Assembly: GCA_014874185.1 (NCBI GenBank)
Contig: JACWAF010000035.1
Location: 1-64,000 of the forward strand
DNA: 64,000 nt
Origin: Nitrospirota bacterium
GTDB lineage: Bacteria > Nitrospirota > Thermodesulfovibrionia > Thermodesulfovibrionales > JdFR-88
Direction of reading: 5' to 3'
Each line of letters opens with the position of its first letter. Position 1 is the stretch's first letter. The notes under the pieces were generated by a model. That model saw only the letters and a program-made list of their open reading frames with translations. It did not search any database and was not told where the DNA came from. Both the position numbers and the translations under genes were made by a program. This document shows, piece after piece, positions 35,831 through 48,225 of the stretch.

Positions 35831-36002
35831 GAACCCCCCCTGGTTTCAGTATCCCACAAATTCCGGTCTTTGGAGTCAGGCCCTCACATTGTACATCAAT
35901 TTACAAGTTTAGTTAAATATAGAATTCTCTTTATAAATTGACAGGTTATCAAGGCGATGATTATAGTAGAGCAAAGAAGGTTTATTCCGGGAGGGGAAGG
36001 GA

Positions 36003-37098
36003 GTTGTGCTCTATTTTTTTCATAGTTTCGAGCCAGCTCTTGGCTGGCCTTGCTCTTGGGGCGATACTCCAGAGGTCGGATTTCTGCATGGCGGGCGCTT
36101 TTCGGGACATCTTCCTGTTCGGGGATTACCTGAAGGCGCGGGCCATCTTCCTGGCTGTTTCCCTGCTTGTGCTGATCGTTTACCTGGAGAGGGTGGGCGG
36201 CCTTATCGGGTCATATCCGCCCTCTTTCTTCGCATCGCCTTCCGGGGCAGACCTCCTTGGGGGAGCGCTCTTTGGCATGGGGATGGTGCTTGGCGGCGGG
36301 TGCATGCTGGGCACATTGTACAAGATGGGCTCCGGCAAGGTGCTGAACCTTTTTACTTTCGCGGGGATGATCGCCGGCGGGATTTTCTATCCGGTGTTCC
36401 TGCCGCTCAAGCTGAAACTGGTCTCGGCCACCGGGTTTTTCCCGCGATGGACGGCCCTGGAGCAGATTGCGGGCATGCACGCAACGGCCGCCGGGTTCCT
36501 GTTAATATCAGCCCTGTTCATTGCAAGATGGGCCGGGAAAGGCCTCCTCTCCCAGAAGGGATACGCCGAAGGATACCTGCAGCTCTGGAAGGCGGCGCTG
36601 GCAATCGTGCTGGTCGTCTCGGCCCAGTACGTCTTTTCAGGCCGGCCCCTGTCGGTGACAAGCGGCATCTTCAAGATGAGCGCCCTGATGGCTCACGCGG
36701 CAACGCCCGCGGCATTCGCCTCGGTGCAGCCTTTTACCGGCAACTCCGTCAGGCTTGTCTATGGGCGCATAATGCCGGAGAGACTCATGAACGCCTTTGA
36801 CGCCGTGGGGATCACCCAGTTCCCGCTGATAGCGGGGATAGTGGGCGGCTCGTTCCTCTCGGCCCTCCAGTTGCGGGAGTTCAAGCCGCTGGGGGTTCCG
36901 CCCTTCGGACAGATAATCTCTTCCATATCGGGCGGGGCTCTCATGTCCGTGGGGGCCCTCATGGCCTCGGGCTGCAACCTGTGGCACTTCTTTGGCGGGC
37001 TTCCCGTCTTCGCGCTCCAGAGCATTCTTTTTCTTTTCGGGATAATACCCGGCAGCTATGCCGGAAGCCTCATAATAAAAAAGGCGGTCTGCAGATGA
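36003..37098 (+). CDS. YeeE/YedE-family (DUF395) sulfur/selenium-compound transporter 1
   Basis: LGAILQRSDFCMAGAFRD, GGALFGMGMVLGGGCMLGTLYKMGSG, GALMASGCNLWHFFGGLPVFALQS. Likely TTG start at 36003 after GGGAGGGGAAGG; the ORF extends to 35938. Confidence 0.88.
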
Positions 37099-37337
37099 CA
37101 AAAGACATAATGCTGGACATCAGGGGGCAGATATGCCCGGCCTGCCTGCTGATTACTCTCAGGGAGATTGCAAACAATAAATTCTCTCTGAAGAGGGGGC
37201 AGTCCAGGCTTGTCGTGAAGACGGACCACCGCGACGCCACCCGGACCATCCCCGGCGCGGCCGTTTCGATGGGTTATGAGACCAGGACCGAGAAGACGGA
37301 CGGCTATTACGAGATAACCATAGAGTACAGGAAATGA
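37095..37337 (+). CDS. TusA/SirA-like sulfurtransferase 1
   Basis: MLDIRGQICPACLLITLREI... TusA fold; ATGA overlap with the YedE stop. Confidence 0.88.
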   Translation: MTKDIMLDIRGQICPACLLITLREIANNKFSLKRGQSRLVVKTDHRDATRTIPGAAVSMGYETRTEKTDGYYEITIEYRK

Positions 37338-38632
37338 AATCCCCAGCCGCCACCCGGACGAAGAAGCCCCGGGCCGGGAAGTCCCTGGCCGGACTCGAAA
37401 AAGAAAAGAAGAAATTAAACGAATACATCAGGGACAAGGTAAACCAGCTCCTTACGGTCATGGGCACCAAGGCCCTCGATGAGCACGAACTGGACGAGAG
37501 CGATTTCCTGCAGCTTGACCCCATCGGCATAATCGCGCTCTCCTTCGAGCAGGTGCTGGAGCACCTGAAGGAGACCAACAAGAGCCTGGGCGTGGCAAAA
37601 AACCAGCTGCAGGCAGTCTTCGACACGGCAGGGGTATGCATCTCGATAGTGGACAGCGACATGCGCATAGTGAACTGCAACGAGAAGCAGAAGGAGCTTC
37701 TTGTCTCAGACCGCGATGAGATAATAGGCCACCACTGCTATGAGGTCTACTGCGGCAAGGAATCCCCCAGCCTGGACTGCCCCGCAATAGAGACCCTTGC
37801 CACGGGACGGCCCGTCCTGGTAAGGGAGGTCAAGAAGAAATCCAGGCATTTCCAGATAGTGACCTCCGCCCTCAAAGACAAGGCGGGCAATATTACAGGG
37901 GTCATAGAGGTCTCGATGGACGTGACCGAGAAGAAGAAGGCCGAGGAGGCGATGAGGCAGGCCGAAAAGCTCTCCGCAATCGGCCTCCTGGCCGCCGGGG
38001 TGGCCCACGAGCTTAACAACCCGCTTGGGAACATCCTTGGCTATGCCCTTCTGGCCCTGAAGGACCCGGCGCTCCAGGCGGACCAGCGGGAAAAGCTGGA
38101 GATAATAGTGGAGCAGGCGAAGAAAGGCAGCGAGATAGTGAAAGGCCTCCTGAACTTTTCGCGCCAGTCCCAGCCGCTCTTCGAGGAGATATCGATTGAG
38201 GACGTGATAAGAAAGGCGCTTAAGAACCTCTCCAGCCGCCTCTTGGCCCAGTCGGTTGAGGTGACCCTTGATATCGGAGATATGCCCAGAGTAATGGCGG
38301 ACCCCAAGCAGATGGAGATAGTCCTGATGAACCTCCTTATAAATTCCATGCAGGCCCTGGAGGGCAGGCCGGACGGGCTGATAAAAATAGCGGCGGGGAA
38401 AAAGGACGGCTTTCTTGAGGTGAGCATAAAGGACAACGGCCCGGGGATCCCGAAGGAGCTTCTGCCGGACATCTTCGATCCCTTCTGCACCACGAAGCCG
38501 GTGGGGCAGGGGGTGGGGCTTGGGCTTTCCATCTGCTCCGGCATTATCAAAAAGCATAACGGCTCCATAAGCGCCGGGAGCGCCGAAGGGGCTGTCTTCG
38601 CCTTCGCCATTCCCCTTGAAAGGAAAAACTAA
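37334..38632 (+). CDS. PAS sensor histidine kinase
   Basis: PAS domain with CYEVYCGKESPSLDCPAI, LLAAGVAHELNNPLGNILGYALLAL H-box, GVGLGLSICSGIIKKHNG. Confidence 0.92.
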   Translation: MKSPAATRTKKPRAGKSLAGLEKEKKKLNEYIRDKVNQLLTVMGTKALDEHELDESDFLQLDPIGIIALSFEQVLEHLKETNKSLGVAKNQLQAVFDTAGVCISIVDSDMRIVNCNEKQKELLVSDRDEIIGHHCYEVYCGKESPSLDCPAIETLATGRPVLVREVKKKSRHFQIVTSALKDKAGNITGVIEVSMDVTEKKKAEEAMRQAEKLSAIGLLAAGVAHELNNPLGNILGYALLALKDPALQADQREKLEIIVEQAKKGSEIVKGLLNFSRQSQPLFEEISIEDVIRKALKNLSSRLLAQSVEVTLDIGDMPRVMADPKQMEIVLMNLLINSMQALEGRPDGLIKIAAGKKDGFLEVSIKDNGPGIPKELLPDIFDPFCTTKPVGQGVGLGLSICSGIIKKHNGSISAGSAEGAVFAFAIPLERKN

Positions 38633-38641
38633 GGAAACAGC

Positions 38642-39979
38642 ATGGAACGGATACTGGTAGTCGAGGACGACCTTCGGATGAGGGAGCTTGTAACCGGGCT
38701 TTTGCAGAAGCAGGGTTATTCGGTGAAGGCCTGCGCCGAGGGCAAGAGGGCGCTCATCTCGCTTAAAGAGGAGGACTTTGACCTGGTCGTGACCGATCTC
38801 AAGATGCCCGACCTGGACGGCATAGACGTGCTTGCCTTTTCCAAGGAGACAAGCCCCACCAGGCCCGTCGTCGTCATAACCGGCTATGGCACGATAGAGA
38901 CCGCCGTGCGGGCCATGAAACTGGGGGCCTTTGATTATATGCAGAAGCCCTTCGACCCCGACGAGCTTTTGATGCTCGTGAAAAGGGCGCTGGAGTTCAA
39001 CCGCCTCTTCAGCCCCGGCCTTATGCTCTCGCCACGGTTCGAGGAATCCATGCAGGCGGATTTCGTGGGCACTAATAAATCCATAGTGGAATTGAAAAAG
39101 ATGATAGAGATAATCGCCCCTCTGGACGCAACCGTGCTTGTACAGGGCGAGACGGGGACGGGAAAGGAGCTTGTGGCAAAATTAATCCATAAGCTCAGCT
39201 CCAGAAATGCCGAAAAGTTCCTGCCCGTAAACTGCGGGGCCTTTGCGGAACCCCTGATAGAGAGCGAGTTCTTCGGCCACGAAAAGGGCTCTTTCACCGG
39301 GGCCGCGGGCATGAAGAAGGGCCTCTTCGAGGCCGCCCACAAGGGCGCAATTTTCCTGGACGAGATCAATAACTCGAGCCAGGGCTTCCAGATAAAGCTC
39401 TTGAGGGTATTGCAGGAAGGCATTTTTACAAGAGTCGGCGGGCTGGAGCCAATCAGCGTGGACGTGCGCGTCATAGCCGCATCCAATGCGGACCTGGTCC
39501 GCGAGGCCGCCGAGGGCAGGTTCAGGAAGGACCTCTTCTACAGGCTGAACGTCATCTCTCTTACGATCCCGCCCCTCAGGGAGCGCAGGGACGACATCCC
39601 GCTCCTCGCCCATTATTTCCTCAGGAAATATAACCGGAAATTTTCAAAGGAGGTCAAAAACTTCAGGCCGGAGGCCCTGGAGGCGCTCGTCTCCTATCAG
39701 TGGCCGGGCAACGTGCGCGAGCTGGAGAACAATATCGCCCGCGCCCTGATAGTGGAGCCCGGCGAGGAGATAGCCCTCAAGTCCCTTCCCGCGGAGATGA
39801 AGGGCAGAAAGGGCCTGGAGGTTGAAGGCTCCTCCTCCGTAAGCATCGAAGAGATGGAAAAGACCCTTATCGAGATGACCCTGAAGGGCAACGGCGGCCA
39901 GAAGGCGCGGACCGCCCAGGCCCTGGGCATAAGCGTCTCCACCCTCTGGAGAAAGCTGAAGAAATACAGTCTCGCCTGA
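38642..39979 (+). CDS. NtrC-family sigma-54-dependent response regulator
   Basis: Receiver (ILVVEDD...DLVVTDLKMPDLDGI), GETGTGKELVAKLIH, GAFTGA-type ESEFFGHEKGSFTGAAG, C-terminal Fis HTH. Confidence 0.95.
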   Translation: MERILVVEDDLRMRELVTGLLQKQGYSVKACAEGKRALISLKEEDFDLVVTDLKMPDLDGIDVLAFSKETSPTRPVVVITGYGTIETAVRAMKLGAFDYMQKPFDPDELLMLVKRALEFNRLFSPGLMLSPRFEESMQADFVGTNKSIVELKKMIEIIAPLDATVLVQGETGTGKELVAKLIHKLSSRNAEKFLPVNCGAFAEPLIESEFFGHEKGSFTGAAGMKKGLFEAAHKGAIFLDEINNSSQGFQIKLLRVLQEGIFTRVGGLEPISVDVRVIAASNADLVREAAEGRFRKDLFYRLNVISLTIPPLRERRDDIPLLAHYFLRKYNRKFSKEVKNFRPEALEALVSYQWPGNVRELENNIARALIVEPGEEIALKSLPAEMKGRKGLEVEGSSSVSIEEMEKTLIEMTLKGNGGQKARTAQALGISVSTLWRKLKKYSLA

Positions 39980-41095: not shown

Positions 41096-41262
41096 AAGCG
41101 GGACTGACGCTCCCGTGGATATGGGTGGCTTTCATAATAGCCTACTTGTCGGTGGGGTTCATGCTGCCCCCCTTTGATAAACCGTTAAAGCAGCTTGGCA
41201 AGACCAAGGTCCAGATGCAGGAGCAGGACAACAGCAAGGGCAACAATGACATCGTCTTCTAA
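41080..41262 (+). CDS. Small single-TM protein
   Basis: MAGEVKAGLTLPWIWVAFIIAYLSVGFMLPPFDKPLKQLGKTKVQMQEQDNSKGNNDIVF; AAAGGAGG RBS and overlapping operon position. Confidence 0.65.
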   Translation: MAGEVKAGLTLPWIWVAFIIAYLSVGFMLPPFDKPLKQLGKTKVQMQEQDNSKGNNDIVF

Positions 41263-41668
41263 AACAGTTCTTTTGCTGGCGGCGTTTTTATCCGTCCCGT
41301 TTGCCGCGGGGGCGGCCTGTCCGCCCGCAAGCGGCCGGTTCGAATGGTCTTCATCCGGTGCGCCCGCCAAAGTGGTAACCGGACGTAAAACCGAAATCGG
41401 CTTCGAGTTCCAGGCACCGGGGGAAGTGCGCGAGGCGTCTTTCCGCATTTCCGCGGGCGCGGAGCGGATGGGGATAAGACTTGTTCCCGTGAAGGCCGCC
41501 GTTTCAAATGGCAGGGTGAGCGGAAAGGTCCTCTTCCTGGTGCCCAGGGGGATGCCGCTTGGCAGACACGAACTCACGATAGAGGCCTTCGACCAGGACG
41601 GATGCCCGATAGGGACGGGCACGATGCCGTTCATACTTCTGCCTTCCGGCAGTGAATGCCTGTGCTGA
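41246..41668 (+). CDS. Secreted protein with C-terminal Cys (candidate sulfur/selenium carrier), paralogue 1
   Basis: Signal peptide; GMPLGRHELTIEAFDQDGCPIGTGTMPFILLPSGSECLC*; paralogous to the next ORF. Confidence 0.75.
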   Translation: MTSSSKTVLLLAAFLSVPFAAGAACPPASGRFEWSSSGAPAKVVTGRKTEIGFEFQAPGEVREASFRISAGAERMGIRLVPVKAAVSNGRVSGKVLFLVPRGMPLGRHELTIEAFDQDGCPIGTGTMPFILLPSGSECLC

Positions 41669-41694
41669 GCACAAAAAAGCATAAAGGAGGAATG

Positions 41695-42168
41695 ATGCGG
41701 AAAAGTTTTTTGTTAATCGCGCTGGTTGCTGGTTTTCTGGCCGCTGGGCTGATCGACTTCACCCTTCCGGGCGCAAAGAGCGGGGTCAGCGTCCCGGCCC
41801 TGGCCGATGAGGCGGGCGCGCAGTTTGCGTGGCATCCCAACAGGCCGGGAGTGACCAGGGCGCAGATAGCACTGGGGAGGGCCGCCACACTGAAATTCGA
41901 ATTCACCGTAAGGGGGCTTCCGGACGGGACGCCGGTTAAATTCGGCATCCCGAAGAAGTACGTGGAGATCGGCGTAGTGGTAGACCCGAAGGAAGTAGTT
42001 GTCAAACAGGGCGTGGCCCGTTCGATGGCGATCTTCGCCGTTCCGCCGGGCATGCCGCTTGGCAGGTTCGATATGCCCGTAGTGGCCGTGAACGCGAATA
42101 CCAACAAGGAGCTTGGCAGGGGGGCGATACCTTTCATGCTGCTTCCGGCCGGCGTGGGCGGGTGCTGA
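41695..42168 (+). CDS. Secreted protein with C-terminal GGC (candidate sulfur/selenium carrier), paralogue 2
   Basis: Signal peptide; GMPLGRFDMPVVAVNANTNKELGRGAIPFMLLPAGVGGC*. Confidence 0.78.
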   Translation: MRKSFLLIALVAGFLAAGLIDFTLPGAKSGVSVPALADEAGAQFAWHPNRPGVTRAQIALGRAATLKFEFTVRGLPDGTPVKFGIPKKYVEIGVVVDPKEVVVKQGVARSMAIFAVPPGMPLGRFDMPVVAVNANTNKELGRGAIPFMLLPAGVGGC

Positions 42169-42198: not shown

Positions 42199-43203
42199 AT
42201 GAGGAGAAAGGGTTTCTTGATTCTGGCTTTGGCGGCAATGGGACTGGTGTTTTCGTTATGCGTGGCGGCGTATGCGGGCGAGACAGGCATACTGATGTCC
42301 CCATCGGACGTGGCGCAGATCGCAGCCAGCCCGGACTGGGTGGTCCTGGATTGCAGGCCGAAGAAGAAGTACGACAAGGAGCACATCCAGGGGGCCATTA
42401 CGCTTGGAGACTCTTGCAGGACGGTGCTCAGGGACGGCACGCAGAGGGCCCTGCCCGCGCCGAAGATCGAGAAGATACTGGGCGCGGCGGGCATAAACAA
42501 TGACAAACACGTGGTTGTCTATTCGGACGGCGACCTGGTCCATGCCTCTGTTGGTTATTGGGTGATGGAGTACATGGGAGACAAACACGTGCATTTCCTG
42601 GACGGCGGGATAATCCAGTGGAAGGCCGAAGGCAGGCCGGTCAGTTCTCAGCAGACGAAGCTTGCGCCCGCAAGGTTCACCGCCCATGTGCAGAAGCGGC
42701 TCATCGCGACAACCCCCGAGGTGCTGAAGATCGCAAGGGGGCGGCTGCATGAGCAGGTCGTGGACAGCCGCACGGCCAAGGAGCACGACGGCTATGATGT
42801 CCGCGCCCTTAGGGGCGGCTATATACCCCATACCACAGTGAACATCTCGCACGAGCTTACCTTCGACAAGGCAACCGGCAAGCTGCTGCCCCTTTCGGTG
42901 CTTGGCTCTCAAAGGTTTTTCGGCCAGCTTGACAGGAACAAAAGGACGGTCACCTACTGCCAGACCGGTTCCCGCTCCACACTCCTCTACATAGAGCTGA
43001 AGCTCCTCGGGTTCAAGGACGTGGCCAACTACGACGACTCCTGGGTCGTATACGGCGACCACTTCAACCCGCCCTATCCCATTGCCAACGAGCAATGGAT
43101 GAACCTGGAGCCGATGCAGAAAGATATGCCGAAGATGGAGAAGGAGATCGAAAAGCTGAAGAAAGAGGTCGAAGAGCTTAAAAAGGCCAAAGAGGCCCAA
43201 TAA
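42199..43203 (+). CDS. Exported tandem-rhodanese sulfurtransferase with C-terminal coiled coil
   Basis: Signal peptide, two rhodanese domains, active loop TYCQTGSRS in domain 2; heptad-like Lys/Glu-rich tail. Confidence 0.92.
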   Translation: MRRKGFLILALAAMGLVFSLCVAAYAGETGILMSPSDVAQIAASPDWVVLDCRPKKKYDKEHIQGAITLGDSCRTVLRDGTQRALPAPKIEKILGAAGINNDKHVVVYSDGDLVHASVGYWVMEYMGDKHVHFLDGGIIQWKAEGRPVSSQQTKLAPARFTAHVQKRLIATTPEVLKIARGRLHEQVVDSRTAKEHDGYDVRALRGGYIPHTTVNISHELTFDKATGKLLPLSVLGSQRFFGQLDRNKRTVTYCQTGSRSTLLYIELKLLGFKDVANYDDSWVVYGDHFNPPYPIANEQWMNLEPMQKDMPKMEKEIEKLKKEVEELKKAKEAQ

Positions 43204-43214
43204 AGGACTGTGCA

Positions 43215-43517
43215 ATGAAACTTGGAATACTCGTAAACACGGACAGTCACCTGGCCCACGTAGTGGGGCTTGCGAATGCCGCAGTGCGCCAAGGGCACGG
43301 GGTCTTCATATTCGCAATGGACGAGGGGACAAAACTCCTGGAGCAGGAGGACTTCCGCAAGCTCTCCGGGTTGGACGGAGTCGAGGTCTCTTTCTGCGAC
43401 CACGGCGCCTGCCTCCTGGGTGTGAACAAGGAAGGGCTCCCTGAAAAAATAATCTGCGGAAGCCAGTACAACAACGCCGTGATGTGCCAGGACTCGGACA
43501 GGGTGATAGTCCTTTGA
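43215..43517 (+). CDS. DsrE/TusD-like protein
   Basis: MKLGILVNTDSHLAHVVGLANAAVRQGHGVFIFAMDEG... VSFCDHGACLLG; first of three small ORFs. Confidence 0.75.
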   Translation: MKLGILVNTDSHLAHVVGLANAAVRQGHGVFIFAMDEGTKLLEQEDFRKLSGLDGVEVSFCDHGACLLGVNKEGLPEKIICGSQYNNAVMCQDSDRVIVL

Positions 43518-43993: not shown

Positions 43994-45397
43994 ATGGACG
44001 ACGAATTCGGATTGAAGGGCTGGTGGAAGGAATGGAACCAGAAATTCTTCAGGGAGAAATGGCCCCTGTGGCTTTCGGCCGTGGTGATGGCCCTCTCCGG
44101 GATAATGGCATACGGCGTGGCGGTCTGGAGCCTTTCGAGGACCGTCTCCGGCCATAACCCCTATGACCAGGCCAAGCCCCTGGGCACGTTTCTGGGGCTG
44201 AAGGAGCTGGGGGGGATGATAAACAGCCTTCTTGGCAGGATCGGGCTGCCCCATTATCCGTTCTCCGGATATATATGGCCCGACGGGGTGACGGTGAGTT
44301 TCTTCAGGCAGTACCCGAACCCGCTTCTGGAGCCCACGGCGGGCACGATGCTGGGGATACTCTTCGGCGGGCTGATAGCGGCCCTCCTGGCCAGGGAGTT
44401 CTCCCTGAAGGTGCCGCTGGACAAGACGGAGTACGCCCTTGCCGGCTCCGGCGGCGTAATGATGGGCGTCGGCGCGGTCTTCATGTTCGGCTGCCCGCTG
44501 GTGAGCACCACCAATATTGGCGCCATGGGCGTGCAGGCCATCCTGATGGTGATCGGCATGACTATTGGCTCATACTTCGGGGCGAAGGTAATCGTCTGGC
44601 TTGAAAAGCGACGGGTCGCGGCAAGCATGGCCTATGCCGACGGCATACATTACAAACCGCTCATGCTTTTTGAAAAAACAAAGACCATCTGGCCCAGGGT
44701 GCCCGAGTACGCGGACGGGGCCGAGCTGGCCGCCATACGCTACCAGCCGCAGGTTGCGGTGCTGCTCATAATCGGCGTGCTCCTGGCGGTTTCGAGGTTC
44801 GCCTCCATAGGCTTTCCGGCCCTCTCGCTCTCTTTCCTGGTGGCCTCGCTCACCGGCTTTGCCATGCAGAGGGGCGGCATCTGCTTCGCCCACGCCTACA
44901 GGGAGCCATTCCTCTCCGGGTTTGCGGACATGAGCCGTTCGATGGCGCTCCTTTATATCCTGCTGGTCATTGGCTTTTTGCCGATGAAGCTCCTGGGGGC
45001 GACCAACCCGGACCTGGCCTACGCGGAGATATTCGCCATAAGCCCGGCCGGGGTGGGCGTGCTTTTGGGGGCCGCGCTTTTTGGCATAGGGATGGCCCTT
45101 AACGGCGCGTGCGTGAGCGACAGCCTCTGGAGGACCGCCGAGGGGCAGGTAAAGATATGGGTGGGGCTCATCACGCTGATATGTGTTTCCTCCTGGCTCT
45201 TCCCGATGAGGGATGAGGCGTGGTTCAAGAACTACTTCGCCCCCTACGGCGCCAAGAATATAAGAGACGTGTACCTGCCGCAGATATTCCACAGCTATCC
45301 GCTGGCCGTGGCGTTCACGATAGGCGTGATACTCATCTGGGCCCTGATGATGACATGGTTCAGCGGACGGACATTTAAAAAATACATGGAAGGCTAG
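43994..45397 (+). CDS. YeeE/YedE-family (DUF395) sulfur/selenium-compound transporter 2
   Basis: MMGVGAVFMFGCPLVSTTNIGAMG, MQRGGICFAHAYREPFLSGF, GIGMALNGACVSDSLWRTAEGQ; multi-TM. Confidence 0.9.
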   Translation: MDDEFGLKGWWKEWNQKFFREKWPLWLSAVVMALSGIMAYGVAVWSLSRTVSGHNPYDQAKPLGTFLGLKELGGMINSLLGRIGLPHYPFSGYIWPDGVTVSFFRQYPNPLLEPTAGTMLGILFGGLIAALLAREFSLKVPLDKTEYALAGSGGVMMGVGAVFMFGCPLVSTTNIGAMGVQAILMVIGMTIGSYFGAKVIVWLEKRRVAASMAYADGIHYKPLMLFEKTKTIWPRVPEYADGAELAAIRYQPQVAVLLIIGVLLAVSRFASIGFPALSLSFLVASLTGFAMQRGGICFAHAYREPFLSGFADMSRSMALLYILLVIGFLPMKLLGATNPDLAYAEIFAISPAGVGVLLGAALFGIGMALNGACVSDSLWRTAEGQVKIWVGLITLICVSSWLFPMRDEAWFKNYFAPYGAKNIRDVYLPQIFHSYPLAVAFTIGVILIWALMMTWFSGRTFKKYMEG

Positions 45398-45410: not shown

Positions 45411-45644
45411 ATGTCTACAGTCAAAGCCGACAAGGTCCTGGACGTGAAGGGCCTGGTCTGTCCGCGTCCGGTGGTAATGACCATGAACACCCTGAAGATC
45501 ATGGACAAGGGGCAGGTCCTGGAAGTGGTCGCGAACGACTCGAGCGTCAAGCACTCGATTCCCTCCCTCTGTCAGCGGGCGGGGTATCAGCTCATTGAGC
45601 AGGGCGAGCGCGAAGGCAGTTTCATTTTCCTGATAAGGAAATAG
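45411..45644 (+). CDS. TusA/SirA-like sulfurtransferase 2
   Basis: KVLDVKGLVCPRPVVMTMNTLKIMDKGQVLEVVANDSSVKHSIPSLCQRAGYQLIEQ (CPxP). Confidence 0.93.
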   Translation: MSTVKADKVLDVKGLVCPRPVVMTMNTLKIMDKGQVLEVVANDSSVKHSIPSLCQRAGYQLIEQGEREGSFIFLIRK

Positions 45645-45661: not shown

Positions 45662-47008
45662 ATGTTTAAAAAGGGAGGCAGCAAGGCGCTACTCATATTA
45701 ACTCTGCTCCTATGCGCCCTGGCCCTGGTGGCATTCCAGGGCTGCGGCGGAGGAGGGAGTTTCCAGGCCCCGTCCACCACCAGTTCCGGGACGATAATAA
45801 CGGCGGACACGTTAAAGAGCTGGGTGGACCAGGGTTTCACTAACGGGACTTCGGGATATAACGGGAAGGTAGTCATTCTGGACGTGAATCCTTCGCCCGG
45901 CATGTACAACACGACCGGCCATATACCGGGCTCTTATTACTTCAACGCAAACGACATGTACGAGACCCGGTTCGAGGGCGTGATAAACGGCGTCAACATG
46001 GTGCCCGACGGGCCCACGATGGACTCTTTGGTTGACAGGTACGGAATCGACCAGAACACCACCATCGTCTTCACCAGCTCAACCGGTTCGTACCCGAGCC
46101 CTGGCATTTACCTTTCCGTATGCAGGCTTTATTTCACCTTCCGGTACTGGGGGTTCCCCAAGGAAAGGCTCAAGATCCTGAATGGGCTTGATGCGGCATA
46201 CGGCTTCAAATACGGGCTTACGAACGCGTCCACCCCGCCGCCGGTGCCATCCGCTTTCAGCGTGCGGAGCAACACATTCGCCCCCCAGGTGAGGGCGTCC
46301 CTGATGGAGATGATCAACGTTGCCGACGGCAAGGAGCCTAATACGGTCCCCATAGACGGGCGTGGCAAAGACGGCGACCCTGGCGTCGTGAACTCTTCCT
46401 ATTCCGGCGACCCGCTTCAGACCCCGGGGGTTTTTATCACAACCCCAACCCCCAAATCCTATGTCGCCTTCGAGGGGCATATCAGTGGGGCGAAGGCGGT
46501 CGTCTGGACGTCCCTCTTCAACGGGGTGGACGCCAACGGCGATGGGAAAATCGATTACCAGCAGTTCCTTCCACCCGACGAGATGGCGGCCAAGTTCACG
46601 GCCCTGGGGATGGACAGCACCAAACAAGCGCGAGTGTATTGACGAACCGGCGTTATCGCCTCGTCGCTGTATGCGGCGCTTGATGCTGAACTGAACTGGG
46701 ATGTTGCCCTTTATGACGGCTCCTGGAGCCAGTGGGGACAGCTGGCGGGCACCTCGAATGGCGGATTCCTGAACGACAGTTCGCCCTGGAGGACGGACAC
46801 ACCCTCCCGCACGCAGGACCTGAAATTCAACGCGGGCTTCGTGAACGGGGTAGGGACGGTAATCGAGAACCCCGCCTTGGGAGGCCCCGTGGTTCCTTTT
46901 GACACAGACCTTAACCGCATAGAGGAGCAGGACTCGACCTATATGGGTTCCGGCTCCGGCGGTGGCAGCTCCGGCGGAGGCGGCGGAGGAGGCAGGGTAG
47001 GATGCTAA
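45662..47008 (+). CDS. Selenocysteine-containing tandem-rhodanese lipoprotein (UGA at codon 327 read as Sec)
   Basis: Lipobox VAFQGC; two rhodanese-like domains. ORF stop TGA at 46640-46642 sits at the active-site Cys position (RVY-U-RTGVIASSLYAAL). Same frame continues 121 sense codons, VYURTGVIASSLYAALDAELNWDVALYDGSWSQWGQLAGTSNGGFLNDSSPW...GSGGGSSGGGGGGGRVGC, to TAA at 47006-47008. Confidence 0.87.
46640..46642 (+). other. Predicted UGA selenocysteine recoding site
   Basis: TGA exactly replaces Cys of the rhodanese C-R-T-G loop; the paralogous domain in 42199-43203 reads YCQTG. Confidence 0.87.
46655..46684 (+). promoter_or_regulatory. Candidate bacterial SECIS (bSECIS) hairpin
   Basis: ATC-GCCT-CGTCGC-[TGTAT]-GCGGCG-CTT-GAT: 6-bp stem (one G-U) plus outer 3-bp stem; the apical loop starts 25 nt after the UGA with G at loop position 2. 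Confidence 0.65.
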
Positions 47009-47043
47009 GGCCAACGATGAAAACGAATAAGGAGGTTTTTTCA

Positions 47044-48225
47044 ATGAGACGCCTGGTTTTCATATGCCTGGCATTTGCCGCGGCCCTGTTCGCCGTGAAC
47101 GCCCATGCGTTCGAGCCTATCACCTTCGGGCAGGAGGGCGCGTTCCTGAAGTTCGACTACCAGGGACAGCTCTATCTGCAATGGAGGGACACGGGCTCCG
47201 GTCCGGACGGGACAAAGGACACTTCGGACATATACTTCCGCCGCAACAGGCTCACCTTCTGGGCCCATGGGCCGGGCAATTACGGCGGCATAGTGCAGCT
47301 TGAGTACGTTGGGGCCAGGAACATAGACGACCTCACCGTGAGCGACCAGCCCGAGACCAGCTTCAGCGTGCTGGACGCCTACTTCATGTACGAGCCGGCA
47401 AACGAGTTCCGCATATATGCCGGCAAGCAGAAGATACAGTTTACCAGGGAGAACCTGGAGGACTGTTTCGTACCCCTGACACTGGACCGCTCGCTCTTCA
47501 TCTACACCCTGGACCACAGCCGCGACACGGGCGTGGTCTTCTGGGGCAACGTCCCCGACGTGAAGGGCCAGTACCGCTTCGAGATATCCAAGGGCAACGA
47601 CGGCGGCGCCAATACCCCCAAGAGCACGTTCATGTTCACCGGCAGGGCCGCTGTATCCCTCCTGACCCCGGAGTACGCCTATGGCTACAAGGGCACATAT
47701 CTGGGCAAGGAAAAAGTGCTCACCATCGGGGCGGGCGCGCAGTATCAGCCGGACGCCGTCTTCAGCGACATAACGGCCAAGACCGGCGCGAAGAACTACA
47801 AGGCCTGGACGGCCGATATCTTCTTCGAATACCCGTTTCCAAAGGCGGGCGCCGTTACGCTCTCAACCGCATATTTGCAGGAGGAATTCGGAGGGGCGTA
47901 CAAGGGCGCTAACCCGGACCCCGTTGCCGTCGGGATAGACGGGGAGAAGCACGGCTGGTACGCGAAGGCCGCGTATCTGCTGCCGGGCAAGGTGGGCCCC
48001 GGCCTGGTGCAGCCGTTCGTCAGATACGAGGACTGGAACTTCGCCGAGATAAACGGCGTCTATGCGCAGAAGATAAAATGGACGGGCGCGGGCGTGAATT
48101 ATCTCATTCACGGGGAGAGCCTGAGGGTTACGCTCCAGTATTCGAGGACCGATTTCCAGAAGGAACTGAACCCCGATTCCAGAAGCTTCAATACGCTGAC
48201 CGCGATGTTGCAGTACCGCTTCTAG
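47044..48225 (+). CDS. Outer-membrane porin (phosphate-selective porin O/P-like)
   Basis: Signal peptide, beta-rich sequence, FDYQGQLYLQWRD...FRRNRLTFWAHGPG, C-terminal aromatic MLQYRF*. Confidence 0.82.
   Translation: MRRLVFICLAFAAALFAVNAHAFEPITFGQEGAFLKFDYQGQLYLQWRDTGSGPDGTKDTSDIYFRRNRLTFWAHGPGNYGGIVQLEYVGARNIDDLTVSDQPETSFSVLDAYFMYEPANEFRIYAGKQKIQFTRENLEDCFVPLTLDRSLFIYTLDHSRDTGVVFWGNVPDVKGQYRFEISKGNDGGANTPKSTFMFTGRAAVSLLTPEYAYGYKGTYLGKEKVLTIGAGAQYQPDAVFSDITAKTGAKNYKAWTADIFFEYPFPKAGAVTLSTAYLQEEFGGAYKGANPDPVAVGIDGEKHGWYAKAAYLLPGKVGPGLVQPFVRYEDWNFAEINGVYAQKIKWTGAGVNYLIHGESLRVTLQYSRTDFQKELNPDSRSFNTLTAMLQYRF

Follow-up and report, generated by a model that had tools for sequence, protein, structure and literature searches.

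The window, by which we mean the whole 64,000-nucleotide stretch of Nitrospirota DNA analysed here, contains a gene that is very probably a selenocysteine (Sec) form of ExtH, in which the UGA at codon 327 would be read as Sec. Read through this UGA, the gene is, as judged from its sequence, the ExtH of the Geobacter selenite/tellurite ext cluster. The gene and the codon in question are as follows:

45662..47008 (+), extH, 448 codons with an in-frame UGA (putative Sec) at codon 327; assigned by NF040901, PF00581, alignment and predicted structure
46640..46642 (+), TGA codon for the putative Sec327 of the rhodanese loop U-R-T-G-V; the aligned codon of homologues is TGC/TGT or TGA, and GGC in one divergent copy

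Translation of the window gives one 448-codon frame (45662-47008, + strand) that is interrupted at 46640-46642 by TGA. The first-pass annotation had claimed an in-frame UGA at the catalytic residue of a rhodanese followed by 121 open codons, and this is confirmed by the translation: 326 codons ending ...DSTKQARVY lie upstream of the TGA, and the frame after it, RTGVIASSLYAALDAELNWDVALYDGSWSQWGQL..., is open for 121 codons, its sole further stop being TAA at 47006-47008. Residue 327 falls where the second rhodanese domain would have its catalytic Cys (...QARVY-U-RTGVIAS...), and the N-terminal rhodanese domain has the loop TSSTGSYPS, without Cys, as had also been noted. The layout of the protein is a signal peptide with a presumed lipobox Cys28, an inactive N-terminal and an active C-terminal rhodanese domain, and a Gly-rich tail ending in Cys. 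Cys28 lies behind a hydrophobic helix, in the sequence FQGC, which departs from the canonical lipobox, and is invariant in 30/30 proteins of our alignment A1, from which the divergent copy L054 was omitted. At two positions of that alignment only, Cys28 and residue 327, does every protein have Cys or UGA.

The Gly-rich C-terminal tail (46946-47005) is conserved widely among ExtH proteins, most of which have -GC or -GY at the end. We considered the C-terminal Cys448 as a general resolving partner of Sec327 and rejected it; the tail ends in Cys in only 18/30 proteins. PGY is the C-terminus of three of the other UGA-containing proteins (L048, L052 and L060), two of which (L052 and L060) are without any Cys beyond the lipobox, so Cys448 is not a general partner of Sec327. 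Inside the second rhodanese domain there is also an EF-hand/dockerin-like loop, DANGDGKIDYQQF (46526-46564, residues ~289-301 of ExtH), which is possibly Ca-binding; it gives a weak PDB match to an EF-hand protein, and the region is variable in length.

The read-through protein scores 262 bits (cut-off 200) against NCBIfam NF040901, the model for ExtH, selenite/tellurite reduction operon rhodanese-like protein, with residues 8-427 aligned to profile positions 4-430 of 430. The Pfam Rhodanese domain PF00581 is found at residues 271-359, spanning the UGA (E 2.2e-11). An AlphaFold model of the protein (pLDDT 85) predicts a tandem rhodanese in which residue 327 is flanked by strand 322-326 and helix 330-343, where a rhodanese normally has its active site, and its top PDB matches are tandem thiosulfate sulfurtransferases (1uar, E 1.3e-16).

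If the TGA were a stop that had silenced the rest of the gene, decay downstream of it might be seen, as the first-pass annotation had pointed out; none was. Identity of the window protein to eight homologues is 50-58% before the UGA and 51-65% after it, a homologue-guided alignment runs through the TGA without frameshift to residue ~430, and codon-position bias persists across the UGA.

ExtH above the NF040901 cut-off was found in 26 of 396 genomes of the phylum Nitrospirota (22 of 177 in an order-level search) and in 7/395 genomes of the phylum of Desulfurivibrio, and a plasmid collection yielded distant sulfurtransferases only and no ExtH. In a set of 32 genes that includes the window gene, the codon aligned to its TGA is TGC/TGT in 26, TGA in five and GGC in one, so the expectation of Cys or UGA at codon 327 is borne out with one exception. 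The five TGA genes come from four genomes and comprise the window gene, L031 (G168), L048 and L060 (both G352) and L052 (G162), the last four all from other Nitrospirota; none of the seven ExtH genomes among the 395 searched in the phylum of Desulfurivibrio has an ExtH with a stop. On a maximum-likelihood tree of ExtH, in which U was counted as a gap, at least four Cys/Sec changes are needed, a single clade of the UGA genes is rejected (p-AU 0.00026), and the nearest neighbours of the window gene are Cys forms.

Several variants of the family were seen in these searches. GSDG replaces the C/U-R-T-G loop in a divergent ExtH copy (L054, G190; also L024), which leaves it no catalytic chalcogen; the catalytic residue can therefore be lost. 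Two UGA-ExtH paralogues coexist in G352, the second of which (L060, G352:C74) has the loop UGGGV. In Desulfurivibrio (L025 8001-10217) a single 807-aa frame joins two ExtH units, each with Cys, and fused frames of 833 and 843 aa occur in two further genomes. An apparent UGA match in G220 proved to be a distant rhodanese and not ExtH.

The genes selA, selB, selC and selD, which the first-pass annotation had proposed to look for, are all in the genome. Profile searches found selA (627 bits), selB (360 bits, cut-off 242) and selD (348 bits), and a tRNA-Sec with UCA anticodon is present. The selD gene itself has one TGA, in the motif SSCAG-U-AAKF (L018, G000:C12:134861-135784), and two full-length fdhA genes each have one internal TGA at ...CAR(V/L)-U-HAPTVA.... 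Together these genes indicate that Sec decoding of UGA is in general use in this genome. Formate dehydrogenase-type genes with one internal TGA each, at the Sec site, were seen at L083, L084 and L087 (G000 contigs C23, C39 and C27). All four genomes with UGA-ExtH have selA; its presence was rejected as a discriminator between Cys- and Sec-ExtH, being found over the cut-off in 26 of the 29 genomes searched and so in most genomes with Cys-ExtH too.

The SECIS-type hairpin that follows the UGA had escaped the first-pass annotation, as had the identity of the protein as a member of the ExtH family. Its position is:

46655..46684 (+), SECIS-like hairpin; inner stem 46662-46667/46673-46678, loop UGUAU 46668-46672, outer stem 46655-46658/46681-46684

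The hairpin (CGUCGC-UGUAU-GCGGCG) has a loop that begins 25 nt past the UGA and a folding energy of -10.4 kcal/mol, and so lies within the published bacterial SECIS model, which has a loop of 3-9 nt with G in the first two loop positions, a spacing of 16-37 nt and an MFE <= -7.5 (PMC13188914). The four other UGA-ExtH genes have hairpins with 5-nt loops (AGUUC, AGUUA, CGUGA and CGUUG) at a spacing of 18-20 nt. Among 500 synonymous-codon shuffles of each of the five UGA genes, 2 (window), 0, 19, 8 and 4 gave a hairpin as good or better. Hairpins with 5-nt NGUNN loops occur in 5/5 UGA-ExtH genes and, at the homologous place, in 0/25 Cys homologues. This loop class was framed after inspection of the five UGA-ExtH hairpins and that of selD; independent support comes from the published G[G/U] loop rule and two fdhA sites. 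The selD hairpin has the loop CGUGC 32 nt downstream of its UGA, and the two fdhA Sec codons are followed, at a spacing of 18 nt, by the NGUNN loops GGUCU and AGUUU; no NGUNN hairpin is present at the third fdhA-like Sec site of the genome (L087). Global fold stability after the UGA was tried as a signal and was not significant (z -0.75, 46640-46700); the signal is the specific hairpin.

Two other accounts of the UGA have to be weighed. It might be a true stop or an assembly error, in which case the gene would be a pseudogene or encode a 326-aa protein only, and ORF callers do end extH at the TGA, while the overall fold downstream of it is not unusually stable. Against this, identity after the TGA equals or exceeds that before it with no frameshift, four other genes also have TGA at this codon, where all remaining homologues bar one have Cys, the hairpin is confined to UGA genes, and a 326-aa product would be without the active loop; we consider this account very improbable. 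It is also hard to credit that the UGA is read as another residue, for example as Cys through a selC-like tRNA-Cys or as Trp through a near-cognate one. The genome does have an unusual tRNA-Cys with a long variable arm (G000:C37:56224-56316; L011 1497-1593, - strand) that scores above the tRNA-Sec gathering score; it fits the selC* type known from Nitrospirae (PMC7609411), and UCA is the anticodon of some selC* tRNA-Cys elsewhere. The anticodon of this one is GCA, however, which pairs with UGC/UGU and not UGA. Of the tRNA-Sec search loci run through ARAGORN, tRNA-Sec alone has a UCA anticodon, and a SECIS-type hairpin is present after the UGA. Sec at codon 327, as the first-pass annotation had it, is supported by the machinery, the Cys/UGA exchange, the intact downstream frame and the hairpin, and we propose that SelA, SelB, SelD and tRNA-Sec would decode the UGA under the direction of the hairpin ~25 nt downstream.

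The neighbours of extH, all on the same strand, are:

35938..37098 (+), YedE/TsuA-type transporter 1, cluster-conserved
37334..38632 (+), sensor histidine kinase, cluster-conserved
38642..39979 (+), sigma-54-dependent response regulator, cluster-conserved
41195..41668 (+), small protein ending -CLC, paralogous to the next, cluster-conserved; weak sub-cut-off Pfam matches only
41656..42168 (+), small exported protein ending -GGC, cluster-conserved; no family at E<=1
42199..43203 (+), second tandem rhodanese, Cys-type (CQTGSR loop), by profile matches
43215..43517 (+), possible DsrE-like small protein, a weak match (PF02635 E 0.088, below cut-off)
43994..45397 (+), YedE/YeeE-type transporter 2 (Sulf_transp); a 77-80% identical orthologue is at the same place in four Cys-type loci
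45411..45644 (+), TusA-type sulfur/selenium carrier (PF01206); adjoins extH in most close homologous clusters
47044..48225 (+), extI, outer-membrane porin-like partner (NF040900, 441 bits, cut-off 150)

The extI gene was listed as an ORF from 47002, and a start at 47044 behind the AGGAGG at 47030-47035 is more plausible. The order yedE1 - histidine kinase - sigma-54 regulator - small proteins - [yedE2 - tusA] - extH - extI is kept wholly or partly in Nitrospirota genomes, whether of the Cys or the UGA type, and to a lesser extent in Desulfurivibrio, which points to a regulated sulfur/selenium module. The YedE-type transporters also match selenium-metabolism YedE models, below cut-off. The paralogous small exported proteins (41195-41668 and 41656-42168 here, L062 3372-4449 elsewhere) have -CLC/-CMC and -GGC ends and belong to no above-cut-off family; their tails are reminiscent of SoxY-type swinging arms.

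What might such a protein do? We suppose that ExtH is exported and probably lipidated on Cys28; a lipid-anchored, outer-membrane location facing either the periplasm or the surface is probable. It would fold as a tandem rhodanese with an inert N-terminal domain and a C-terminal domain that holds Sec327 at the usual persulfide-carrying position, and it would most likely work with the ExtI porin as an acceptor and transferase of chalcogen (sulfur or selenium), on substrates in the cell envelope that may be oxyanions or polysulfur species. We regard such a chalcogen-transferase role as evenly poised between right and wrong. Sec327 would be expected to give an Se-S intermediate that is faster or easier to reduce. 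Loss of extI in Geobacter impairs selenite and tellurite reduction (PMC5877670; PMC6148476), and a part for ExtH in selenite chemistry is carried over by analogy from that porin; we came across no report on the activity of ExtH itself. The further idea that selenium/tellurium oxyanion reduction in the envelope employs an enzyme that is a selenoprotein in its own right, with Sec327 as the residue that accepts the chalcogen (through an Se-S or Se-Se intermediate), is tentative and in our judgement somewhat doubtful. A chalcogen-accepting Sec327 would account for the repeated Cys/Sec exchange in ExtH, and which form is present may follow selenium supply.

The Sec rhodanese might instead handle reduced sulfur, transferring it from thiosulfate or polysulfide to TusA, and be unconnected with selenite or tellurite, which we hold to have a little under an even chance of being correct. 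The YedE/TsuA-type transporters, TusA and the second rhodanese are suggestive neighbours in this respect, the best structural matches are thiosulfate sulfurtransferases, and the URTGV loop is similar to the loops of those enzymes (CRKGVT). On the other hand, both ExtH and ExtI match equivalog models that are named for selenite/tellurite reduction, the Geobacter ExtI mutant is defective in that reduction, and the neighbouring transporters also have sub-cut-off matches to selenium-metabolism models.

Sec-ExtH would place Sec in a family of proteins associated with the reduction of selenite and tellurite. It would be a selenoprotein of the sort that standard annotation splits or truncates, and Nitrospirota ExtH genes whose annotation shows an apparent internal stop would have to be corrected. 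The exchange of Cys and Sec at least four times at one catalytic residue also provides natural Cys/Sec pairs of a single enzyme for testing what is gained from Sec.

ExtH of Geobacter sulfurreducens (GSU2940; NF040901) is, like the window gene product, a rhodanese-like lipoprotein (~49 kDa) whose gene immediately precedes that of the ExtI porin; it has been described as an ordinary rhodanese-like protein, whereas the catalytic residue of the window ExtH is UGA-encoded. The predicted selenoprotein of the Geobacter cluster is a different one, ExtKL (PMC5877670, PMC6148476), which shares the ext gene cluster but is a pentahaem cytochrome and no rhodanese. That cluster has multihaem cytochromes of the ExtKLMNOPQS kind; none is present in the 64-kb window. 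The tandem thiosulfate sulfurtransferases (bovine rhodanese and T. thermophilus 1uar) and YnjE, to which the ExtH fold matches with E 1e-16 to 1e-12, are likewise built of two rhodanese domains, of which the C-terminal holds the reactive residue, but they have Cys instead of Sec and are without the lipobox and Gly-rich tail. A 2026 review of prokaryotic selenoproteins describes five rhodanese forms and nowhere mentions ExtH (PMC13188914), and the only paper that a full-text search on ExtI, ExtH and selenoprotein returned was that on Geobacter ExtI; the papers searched describe no ExtH selenoprotein. All five forms have a rhodanese domain with Sec, and forms 2 and 4, whose database entries are MBM9537886.1 and MCY3690685.1, share a UxxG motif with the URTG of ExtH. 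TsoB (form 5, NF045694) gives no match to ExtH at E<=0.001, and forms 1-4 were compared by their published description, so that form 2 or 4 may overlap with it; we therefore claim Sec-ExtH as a new Sec variant of the known ExtH family, and not as a new class of system.
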